Translations under genes and position numbers: made by a program | Assembly: GCA_016938685.1 (NCBI GenBank) | Contig: JAFGUD010000235.1 | Span: forward strand, 1-64,000 | DNA length: 64,000 bases | Origin: Bacteroidales bacterium | GTDB taxonomy: Bacteria; Bacteroidota; Bacteroidia; Bacteroidales; JAFGUD01 | Direction: 5' to 3' | Shown: positions 461 to 3,902 of the stretch, piece after piece | Numbering within the stretch: position 1 is the stretch's first letter | Layout: each line of letters opens with the position of its first letter | Notes under the pieces: generated by a model | Seen by the model: the letters and a program-made list of their open reading frames with translations, nothing else | Told to the model about the DNA's origin: nothing | Database searches by the model: none

Positions 461-1855
461 CTATTTCCGATGATGTTTGATAAAACTCTCAACTTCTTCA
501 ACTCCTCCTTGATAAACAAGGTATCCGTTGTAAGGTTCCCGTTCGGTTATTTCATCGTTAACCGGTTTTAACATAAGCCGTTTTACTTCATCAGGATCTT
601 GTGACATTCCCATTGCCCAACCTAATTTCACAAAAGCAACTTCCGGCAGCATATTCCCAAGTGGTGTAACACCTTTTGCTAGCAAATCACGCCCTGTATC
701 ATACACATACATGTGAACATATCCCCAAAGAGTTTGAAGAGTCATATAAAACTGAACTCCTTTTTCAACGCCTCTTTCTATTGACGGATAAAGTTCCCTG
801 TTTACATGACCAAGTCCTGTCCCAACAATTATTATTCCTTTGTATCCCATATCAACCAAAGCATCAATTATTTCAGGATTCATGTGCGGATAATAATATA
901 ACATTGTGACTTTTTCCTCGAAAACAGGAAAAATATCAACATTACGATCTTTTCTACGATGATTATATTTCTTTTTAATCAACTTTATTTCATCTTTTGT
1001 AACGGTAGCAATTGGAGTATCTCCAATAGTTCTAAAAGTAGAACGATAAGAAGAGTGCATTTTTCTAACTCTGGTACCACGATGTAGAAATCCATATTCA
1101 TCAGAAGTAGGACCAAACATACAAACCATAACTTCGGCAATATTAGAATGACCTGCAGTATGAACAGCATGAATAAGATTTAAAGCAGCATCAGAAGAAG
1201 GTCTGTCAGAAGAACGTTGAGAGCCAACCAAAACAATTGGCACAGGAGAATTTTGAACCATAAAAGATAAAGCAGAAGCAGTATGATGAAGCGTATCAGT
1301 ACCATGAGCAATCACTATTCCGTCAACTCCTTTTTCAATCTCTTTTCCTATTGCTTTTGCAAGTTGAATATACTGAGCGGGACCCATATTTTCACTAAAA
1401 ACAGCAAAAACTTTTTCGGTTGTAAGGTTGCAATAATCAGCAAGTTCAGGAACGGCACCATATAATTCTCCGGGGGAAAAAGCAGGAATAACAGCACCTG
1501 TTCTATAATCCAATCGTGAAGCAATAGTTCCTCCGGTTCCAATTAGTTTTACAGACGGTAATCCCTCGGTTGTAGGAAATTGTTTTTCGGGGATTTTATA
1601 ATTAGCTTTTTTGTAGCCAACTTCTTTGGCTTCTGTAATTGTTTGAATATCCAAACCAATATTATAACCTGTAATTATTTTCAGGACAATATGTTGGTCA
1701 TCGTCATTTTCAGCACGCGGTAAAACAGTTCCAAAAAAACTACCTCGAGTTGTTGAAAACTCAGCTTGACCCCAAACTCTAACATTGTATTTTTTCAACA
1801 CTTCAAGAGCGTCACCTTTATATCCTTGAAAGAAATCAACAGTTTCCTTTTGCAT
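461..1855 (-). CDS. gatD: Archaeal-type Glu-tRNA(Gln) amidotransferase subunit D / asparaginase-like protein
   Basis: N-terminal GatD-like beta domain (RGSFFGTVLPRAENDDDQHIVLKIITGYNIGLDI) plus type I asparaginase motifs TGGTIASR, AHGTDT, GSQRSSDRPSSDAALNL, HRGTRVRKMH. Confidence 0.8.
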   Translation of the reverse strand: MQKETVDFFQGYKGDALEVLKKYNVRVWGQAEFSTTRGSFFGTVLPRAENDDDQHIVLKIITGYNIGLDIQTITEAKEVGYKKANYKIPEKQFPTTEGLPSVKLIGTGGTIASRLDYRTGAVIPAFSPGELYGAVPELADYCNLTTEKVFAVFSENMGPAQYIQLAKAIGKEIEKGVDGIVIAHGTDTLHHTASALSFMVQNSPVPIVLVGSQRSSDRPSSDAALNLIHAVHTAGHSNIAEVMVCMFGPTSDEYGFLHRGTRVRKMHSSYRSTFRTIGDTPIATVTKDEIKLIKKKYNHRRKDRNVDIFPVFEEKVTMLYYYPHMNPEIIDALVDMGYKGIIIVGTGLGHVNRELYPSIERGVEKGVQFYMTLQTLWGYVHMYVYDTGRDLLAKGVTPLGNMLPEVAFVKLGWAMGMSQDPDEVKRLMLKPVNDEITEREPYNGYLVYQGGVEEVESFIKHHRK

Positions 1856-1867
1856 AATAATATTAGT

Positions 1868-3076
1868 TTATTTATGTATTTCTATTTTTTTGACAGACCC
1901 TAATTCGGGATAAAATTCGATTTTAACATCACCAGCTTCAAATAATGAAGCAGGAAGAGATTCTATAGTTCCAAGTTGAGCAACAAAAATTGATTTTTGA
2001 GCAATAATCTGAGAGTTATATAAAACTCTTAAAACAGCACTTTCAGGTATTCTATATACCAATCCATCATTTTTTTTGATTTTTTCCATTTGCTGATACA
2101 AAAACTGATTTTGTTGAAAGCTTCTAATGTTTTGCACATAATTATCAGCATTAATTTCTATAAAAACAGGTGTTCCATACAAATTATCAGCAGGCAATAC
2201 TCCACTATTTGCAGAAAATTTGAATAAAATTATTTTTTTGTAAAAAACATTTTCATCAGGCACATAACTAAAAGTGTATGTATACCTAATAGTGTCAATT
2301 TTCCCGACAAACATCGAAAGATATTCTTTTTCAAGCTCATCAATTCCATCTAACATTATTTGCAAGGCATCACCATCAGGCAAAAAGTCACTATCTCCCT
2401 CTCCTACCAAAAGAGCAGCTCTATCGTCTCTTAAAACAAGAATTTGGTCTGCCAAATCTTTAGCTTGTTCTTCGGTTGTTTTAAGTATTACATTCTTCTT
2501 TAAAATTGGGATTTTTCTAATAATAGTATCATACACTTCTTCCTGATAAATAGTATCGTAAACTACTTTGTAGTTTTTATCTGAAGTTAATACATTAAAA
2601 GTCAATTTTTCAGATTTCTTATTCTGATTATTAGCACCAAAAACATCGAAATTATTATTTTCGTATACAACTTCAGGGCTGTTAAGAGCAATCAAAAAAC
2701 CTTCTTTAGTTTGAGAAAAACCGTATAACAAACCTAAATCAGTAGTATTTAAAACATAAGTATTCAATGTATCAGGAATCGGAACAGAATGAAAAGCCAC
2801 ATTTGATATTTCAAACTCAGTTTTATTCTCTGTTACAGAGTTTTTCAAAGACCCAAGATAATTTTGAGTGTAATCAGCATAAGGTCCTTTGCTTTGAACT
2901 ATTTTAAGAACTTCAACTTCTACGAAAATTTTAGTTTTGGGAAGATTATAAATCAATCCCGTAGAAGTATATTTTTTCAAGTTATTTATATTTTGAACCT
3001 GAAACAAATTCTTTGTGCTATTACAAGCAGAAAAAAAAGCAACAAGCAACACTAAACTAAACAAATATTTATTCAT
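1868..3076 (-). CDS. DUF4831-like lipoprotein
   Basis: Lipobox (FFSAC); overall pattern of the Bacteroidota DUF4831 family (GLIYNLPKTKIFVEVEV...). Confidence 0.65.
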   Translation of the reverse strand: MNKYLFSLVLLVAFFSACNSTKNLFQVQNINNLKKYTSTGLIYNLPKTKIFVEVEVLKIVQSKGPYADYTQNYLGSLKNSVTENKTEFEISNVAFHSVPIPDTLNTYVLNTTDLGLLYGFSQTKEGFLIALNSPEVVYENNNFDVFGANNQNKKSEKLTFNVLTSDKNYKVVYDTIYQEEVYDTIIRKIPILKKNVILKTTEEQAKDLADQILVLRDDRAALLVGEGDSDFLPDGDALQIMLDGIDELEKEYLSMFVGKIDTIRYTYTFSYVPDENVFYKKIILFKFSANSGVLPADNLYGTPVFIEINADNYVQNIRSFQQNQFLYQQMEKIKKNDGLVYRIPESAVLRVLYNSQIIAQKSIFVAQLGTIESLPASLFEAGDVKIEFYPELGSVKKIEIHK

Positions 3077-3902
3077 TTTTCAAAAATTTAAAAATCTCTA
3101 AAACAAAGGCAAAAACAAAAGCCAAAACAAAAACCAAAACAAAATAAATTAAACTTTTAACTAATCTTTCATCAATAATTTCCGGATAATCGGAAAAACC
3201 ATTTACTATAACAACCGGATTATTAGAAGAAATTAGTGCATTTAATTTCACCTTACTAAGCTCTAAATCAACAACGCTAGCCCAGTCTCCAAGACTAAAT
3301 AAGACAACCTGATTGTTCTTCAATACTTCATTTTCTATTAAGTCATTTAAGCTATCAACAAAATTCAACTTTTCATCAATTATTCTGGTAGAATTTTTTA
3401 TCGTAACATCTTGGTTTTCAAAAGAAGCACGAATAAATTCATTATTATTACAATAATCTAATATTTTTCCCTGCAGTTCATTTAACTTTGATTTATCTGA
3501 AACTTCAACTGTAATCTCAATATTTTGCGGATCCGACTTAAACAAAGCTTTATCTGAATAAATTGCAATATCCATACTTTTAAGGAAAGAAGCATCATCT
3601 AAATCAAGAAAAGAACTAATATAATTGTAATTACTAGTTTCGACTTTATCCTGCAAAATAGACAACAACATCGAAACAGGCTGTAAATCTACAACATAAA
3701 CACCCGAAGAGTTTTCAATAAATAACGTACTTGTTACAATCATTTTTGCCTCATAACGAATTTTTGTGGTACTATATTTATAGATACCAGCTAAAATAGC
3801 TATTACAAAAGCAATAATCCAAATTATTTTATGATTACCCAAAAACTTGAATATTTTCAACCCTAATTCTTTCAAATCAATTTCATCATTTTTTTTACTC
3901 AT
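3069..3902 (-). CDS. Wzz/chain-length-determinant-like membrane protein
   Basis: N- and C-terminal TM helices flanking a long soluble segment; overlaps the downstream gene by 8 nt. Confidence 0.5.
   Translation of the reverse strand: MSKKNDEIDLKELGLKIFKFLGNHKIIWIIAFVIAILAGIYKYSTTKIRYEAKMIVTSTLFIENSSGVYVVDLQPVSMLLSILQDKVETSNYNYISSFLDLDDASFLKSMDIAIYSDKALFKSDPQNIEITVEVSDKSKLNELQGKILDYCNNNEFIRASFENQDVTIKNSTRIIDEKLNFVDSLNDLIENEVLKNNQVVLFSLGDWASVVDLELSKVKLNALISSNNPVVIVNGFSDYPEIIDERLVKSLIYFVLVFVLAFVFAFVLEIFKFLKNE

Follow-up and report, generated by a model that had tools for sequence, protein, structure and literature searches.

GatD and GatE subunits of an archaeal-type Glu-tRNA(Gln) amidotransferase in a Bacteroidales genome and its relatives

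The GatDE amidotransferase has been described in reviews as exclusive to archaea (PMC8762117; PMC9499178; PMC8007984), organisms that are without GlnRS (PMC9499178), and the explanation given in the literature for archaea never gaining GlnRS is the coevolution of GatDE with archaeal tRNA-Gln. A gene resembling gatD at positions 461 to 1855 of a 64,000-nt stretch of Bacteroidales DNA (referred to as the window, in its whole length) raises the questions of whether it encodes a genuine GatD, whether the E subunit accompanies it, and what such an enzyme would do in a bacterium. The first-pass annotation had proposed an archaeal-type GatD that was either horizontally acquired or repurposed as an asparaginase, on the premise that GatDE is archaeal and that bacteria use GatCAB. 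This textbook distribution is contradicted by the Bacteroidota GatD described here. No papers linking GatDE to Bacteroidales were found in the open-access literature. In automatically annotated databases, these proteins probably carry the names GatD and GatE already; what is new is therefore the recognition of a complete bacterial system and not the name of the gene.

Identity of the gatD gene and of its partner

The gene was located on the minus strand (1855..461) as an open reading frame with an ATG start and 464 codons for amino acids, the plus strand across the same interval being full of stops; the first-pass annotation had given no strand. Its product was identified as the ammonia-releasing (amidohydrolase) subunit D of Glu-tRNA(Gln) amidotransferase by profile models, nearest structures and tree. 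It achieved 501.8 bits with the NCBIfam model NF003217 for GatD (cut-off 310) and 498.1 bits with TIGR02153 gatD_arch (cut-off 324), and just 373.7 bits with TIGR00519, the model for ordinary type I asparaginases. The GatD_N beta domain that had been read from the sequence was confirmed by Pfam (PF18195, residues 39–75, positions 1631..1741; 38.9 bits, cut-off 25.7). It is followed on the same minus strand by Pfam matches to the asparaginase N-terminal domain (PF00710, 971..1552) and the asparaginase C-terminal domain (PF17763, residues 315–428, 572..913), which is the domain order of archaeal GatD.

The TGGTIAS and HGTDT motifs had been noted as kept, and both are indeed present and invariant among the relatives. 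The asparaginase-site residues are all invariant, namely T107 and T110 of the TGGT catalytic motif (1526..1537, minus strand; invariant across archaeal and Bacteroidota GatD), T186 and D187 of HGTDT (1292..1306, minus strand), and K265, the catalytic lysine by homology, of the RKMH motif (1055..1066, minus strand). The catalytic residues are shared with archaeal GatD. A PDB search placed the GatD chains of Pyrococcus abyssi (1zq1_A, 1.5e-115) and Methanothermobacter thermautotrophicus (2d6f_A, 1.9e-110) on top, the best asparaginase reaching 1.4e-39. According to the sequences obtained from this search, the window GatD is 45% identical to that of M. thermautotrophicus, the two archaeal GatD being 58% identical to each other. 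In contrast to the archaeal proteins, Bacteroidota GatD features an extra conserved C-terminal segment that extends past the ends of the archaeal matches.

AnsA, the type I cytosolic asparaginase of bacteria, has the catalytic domain fold and motifs of GatD, but lacks GatD_N, is about 27–31% identical, and forms a separate clade in the GatD tree, the split (support of 100/98) leaving the window protein on the side of archaeal GatD. Profile scores were bimodal in the genomes drawn from the whole phylum and in the relatives, with about 240 bits as the upper limit for ordinary asparaginases and a range of 467–522 bits for full-length GatD. No placement among AnsA was seen, and the protein encoded at 461–1855 is GatD by curated models and phylogeny, residing in a Bacteroidota genome as the first-pass annotation had stated.

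No gatE was found within the 64,000-nt window, which had also been noted correctly. A GatE protein of 658 amino acids is encoded elsewhere in the genome, on a separate contig (C16). It is the only protein with a GatB_N domain, and GatB itself is absent, hence there is no GatCAB. This GatE passed the cut-off of NF003107 barely (457.1 bits, cut-off 456) and that of TIGR00134 clearly (393.4 bits, cut-off 319.6), and failed every GatB model (119.8 bits, cut-off 338). Its nearest PDB chains were 2d6f_C and 1zq1_C, which represent GatE in either GatDE structure. Residues H43, E187 and E214 are invariant and align with H15, E157 and E184 of M. thermautotrophicus GatE, the Mg ligands of the Mg/ATP site in that enzyme (2d6f). 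Both subunits of the archaeal enzyme are represented in Bacteroidota, GatE sharing the catalytic residues and probably the archaeal order of catalytic cradle, GAD domain and YqeY-like tail. Bacterial GatB shares the cradle and the type of reaction with GatE, but in GatCAB the ammonia is provided by the amidase GatA, whereas in GatDE it is provided by the asparaginase-type GatD. The first structural matches of the AlphaFold models for GatD and GatE were GatD and GatE chains, respectively; these models were built from shallow alignments and are of moderate confidence (mean pLDDT of 66 and 75), the GatE model representing a relative's protein (locus L035) that is 68% identical to the GatE of the window genome.

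The window genome is a MAG broken into 555 contigs (total of 4.75 Mb, completeness of 95.5%, contamination of 5.4%), which could suggest that archaeal or other foreign DNA was introduced by assembly or binning. However, gatD and gatE are also present, again at two separate places, in the congeners G297 and G298, and both genes lie in the same contexts in all three genomes of the genus, gatD adjoining the genes at 1868–3076 and 3069–3902 and bcp, and gatE adjoining SPOR-like and TraB-like genes. Moreover, gatED occurs in cultured strains of Marinifilum, Labilibaculum and Ancylomarina, and in three genomes (G295, G124 and G132) the locus is held on a single multi-megabase contig. Contamination or an assembly artefact was thus rejected, its probability being negligible, and for the GatDE family as a whole this explanation is already refuted.

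Distribution, selection and origin of the pair in Bacteroidota

Scores above the GatD cut-off were obtained for 22 out of 297 Bacteroidota genomes drawn from the whole phylum, and GatE was detected in all 22 of them and in none of eight GatD-negative controls. A second set comprised 60 relatives, nearly all from different families of the window's order. Here, GatD was present in 27 genomes, and GatE in 25 of these versus 0 of the 33 without GatD (hypergeometric p of ~7e-15, our own estimate, in which kinship is ignored). The two exceptions differ in kind. In one (G344), gatD is cut by the end of the contig exactly where gatE would come next. In the other (G310, 99% complete; locus L282, C463:1-3156), gatD is without gatE in the 1.5 kb upstream and no GatE was found in the genome, so that GatE may have been lost or may fall into a gap of the assembly.

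In 80 named Bacteroidota contigs, among them those of the cultured Marinifilum, Labilibaculum and Ancylomarina, GatD is 76–83% identical to that of the window, and gatE was found upstream of gatD in 75 of them. Wherever both genes are of full length (81 of 81 loci), gatE lies upstream and on the same strand, with a median gap of 30 bp. Apart from gatE, no conserved neighbour of gatD hinting at a function was found in the 80 loci, a NUDIX-like gene following gatD in just 17 of them.

Purifying selection acts strongly on both genes, with dN/dS values for gatD of about 0.04–0.08 within the genus and about 0.02 in Marinifilum, and for gatE of 0.03–0.05 in Marinifilum; these values are rough, since synonymous sites are near saturation for some pairs. 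Because both genes are constrained in this way, the data agree neither with contamination nor with a repurposed asparaginase acting alone. That GatD and GatE are kept together by selection as a pair is close to shown by their co-occurrence and conservation.

The proposal that GatD was repurposed as a stand-alone cytosolic asparaginase, the amidotransferase function having been lost, could draw on the observation that no asparaginase-family protein other than GatD was found in the window genome and its two congeners, and on the genome G310 with its solitary gatD. Nevertheless, repurposing is disfavoured, because GatE is present in the window genome and tracks GatD across the phylum, usually as its immediate neighbour. 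Furthermore, GatE keeps its catalytic residues under the constraint described above, 18 of the 27 GatD genomes of the order additionally encode an ordinary AnsA, and the asparaginase fold is equally a property of archaeal GatD. We consider this alternative offered by the first-pass annotation improbable. The other alternative, acquisition, is not peculiar to this genome, as a single GatD lineage spans many families.

In the GatD tree, the Bacteroidota sequences form a single clade (support of 100/100) with two main lineages. GatD from three of the 80 contigs, labelled Chlorobiota, also fell inside this clade. The tree contains just two archaeal sequences, both on long branches, which fix neither the donor nor the root, and no further archaeal GatD for rooting was found among viral contigs and plasmids. 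A single entry of gatDE into Bacteroidota from an archaeal-type source is most likely, and the enzyme would later have adapted to bacterial tRNA. Vertical inheritance since a remote ancestor, the genes having been lost by other Bacteria, would also fit the single, firmly supported Bacteroidota GatD clade, which lies apart from both archaeal sequences, and GatDE has been proposed by reviews for LUCA (PMC9499178). However, the patchy distribution within the phylum (22 of 297) would require very many losses, and the two long-branch archaeal sequences lend it no fixed root, so that such a descent appears very improbable. A separate event is suggested by gatD of G156 (L022, G156:C73), a genome of family f35, which groups with the window's order and away from the other f35 genomes, and transfer of gatED within the phylum is likely in this case, judging from the tree position.

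Glutaminyl-tRNA routes and tRNA-Gln in the host genomes

The window genome encodes GlnRS, GluRS and AsnRS. Of the 22 GatDE genomes drawn from the phylum, 20 have a GlnRS that scored above the cut-off, as do 55 of the 60 relatives, with hardly any exception among the order's GatDE genomes; for AsnRS, the count was likewise 20 out of those 22. GatB was detected in 16 of the same 22 genomes and in 4 of the 60 relatives, and most GatDE hosts in the window's order are without GatB. In two genomes, the direct and the indirect genes for Gln-tRNA are neighbours: glnS adjoins gatED and is convergent with gatD in G014 (L288, C45:507500-514500), and is found directly upstream of gatE, in the same orientation, in G337 (L292, C78:19500-27500).

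GatDE was detected with neither GlnRS nor GatB in G332 (96% complete), and the truncated GatD of G344 occurs in a genome (94% complete) in which neither was found. These genomes represent a lead only, because about 1.2 genomes without GlnRS and GatB are expected from MAG incompleteness alone, by our own estimate. In both, the gltX-folB region is uninterrupted and without glnS, but the same arrangement was seen in G352, which has glnS elsewhere, so that a true loss of glnS is no more than suggested. In a third GatDE genome, G252, which is one of the two without GlnRS in the phylum-wide draw, the absence of GlnRS is probably an assembly gap, since the contig breaks inside gltX and its congener G055 has gltX, glnS and asnS together. 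The GluRS residue R358 (T. thermophilus numbering), considered as a mark of a discriminating GluRS, was uninformative, since all tested genomes have Arg there, irrespective of GlnRS. It is doubtful, with G332 and G344 as the candidates, that GatDE is the sole source of Gln-tRNA(Gln) in some Bacteroidota, which would combine the archaeal indirect pathway with a bacterial tRNA.

Archaeal GatDE recognizes the D-loop and the A1-U72 pair of tRNA-Gln (PMC9499178). The tRNA-Gln genes recovered from the relatives have U1-A72, with or without GatDE, the single exception being a tRNA-Gln(TTG) with an archaea-like A1-U72 in G160, a GatDE-positive genome without GatB (L247, C109:13370-13600). No tRNA-Gln gene was found in the incomplete assembly of the window genome, from which 28 tRNA matches were recovered in total. 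A second, archaeal-like tRNA-Gln was not seen in GatDE genomes in a pattern search covering TTG anticodons and one form of the T-arm, the tRNA-Gln of GatDE-positive and GatDE-negative relatives being alike. There is thus no sign of an archaeal tRNA-Gln acquired alongside GatDE. Since the relatives present U1-A72 and the archaeal enzyme reads A1-U72, the Bacteroidota GatDE must have adapted if it acts on tRNA-Gln. On sequence grounds, U1-A72 would bear on the sameness of substrate recognition and not on membership in the protein family. Two further observations concern tRNA genes in these genomes. The congener G297 has two tRNA-Gln(TTG) genes that differ at the discriminator base, G73 versus A73 (L225 and L226). 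In G132 (L252, C1:2631540-2632300), a tRNA-Pro(TGG) gene is followed at 121–593 by four tandem units of ~114 bp repeating the 3' half of this tRNA plus a spacer, which look tRNA-derived, no copy being called a tRNA by ARAGORN.

The tail of archaeal GatE contacts tRNA in the 2d6f structure. In Bacteroidota GatE, the catalytic cradle is strongly conserved (123 of 270 columns at ≥98%), whereas GAD (12 of 119 columns) and the tail (3 of 137 columns) are strongly diverged. The Pfam scores for the GAD and YqeY-like domains, 71 and 107 bits in the Pyrococcus GatE used as control, drop to about 18–32 bits or none (weak to significant) in the Bacteroidota relatives, and the GatE of the window genome is without a Pfam match to either at E<0.1, though its length aligns with archaeal GatE. 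This drift suggests that the tRNA specificity may differ from that of the archaeal enzyme. Together with the nearly constant presence of GlnRS, it could mean that GatDE is indeed a tRNA-dependent amidotransferase but acts wholly or mainly on something other than Glu-tRNA(Gln), namely a different mischarged tRNA, only some of the tRNA-Gln isoacceptors or a carboxylate that is not on a tRNA. However, adaptation from archaeal to bacterial tRNA-Gln would equally produce drift in the tail, and with AsnRS above its cut-off in 20 of the 22 phylum-wide GatDE genomes, a role in Asn-tRNA formation is likewise unneeded. A substrate of this kind is regarded as rather unlikely.

Proposed function and its meaning for Bacteroidota

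The reading we favour, as the probable one, is that GatDE is functional in these bacteria and, by amidating Glu-tRNA(Gln), offers an additional or corrective path next to that of GlnRS. Both subunits are encoded by the organism and conserved together, with their catalytic residues kept under strong selection; action on Glu-tRNA(Gln) is predicted from family membership. GatD would be the D subunit of a complete heteromeric enzyme whose E subunit is encoded on the other contig. Its asparaginase site would hydrolyse Asn or Gln, and the ammonia would be passed to GatE, which, with ATP, would activate the side-chain carboxylate of Glu on tRNA(Gln) and amidate it to Gln-tRNA(Gln). The substrate would arise from an imperfect GluRS, and GatDE would correct it. 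Such a backup or repair role, suggested by the near-constant presence of GlnRS, is the most likely one because the hosts also have GlnRS; the same presence means that a Gln-tRNA function is not obviously needed, which is the counterpoint to this reading. In the few genomes without detected GlnRS and GatB, GatDE might be the sole path.

In contrast to the archaeal setting, the Bacteroidota enzyme resides in a bacterial host, coexists with GlnRS and is confronted with a bacterial tRNA-Gln. A widespread and selected GatDE in GlnRS-bearing bacteria breaks the archaea-only rule, the pair being frequent in a phylum of bacteria that possess the usual Gln-tRNA pathway as well. Bacteroidota GatDE represents a natural test of the adaptation of this enzyme to bacterial tRNA-Gln, and the cultured hosts Marinifilum, Labilibaculum and Ancylomarina allow the purpose of a second Gln-tRNA route to be asked.
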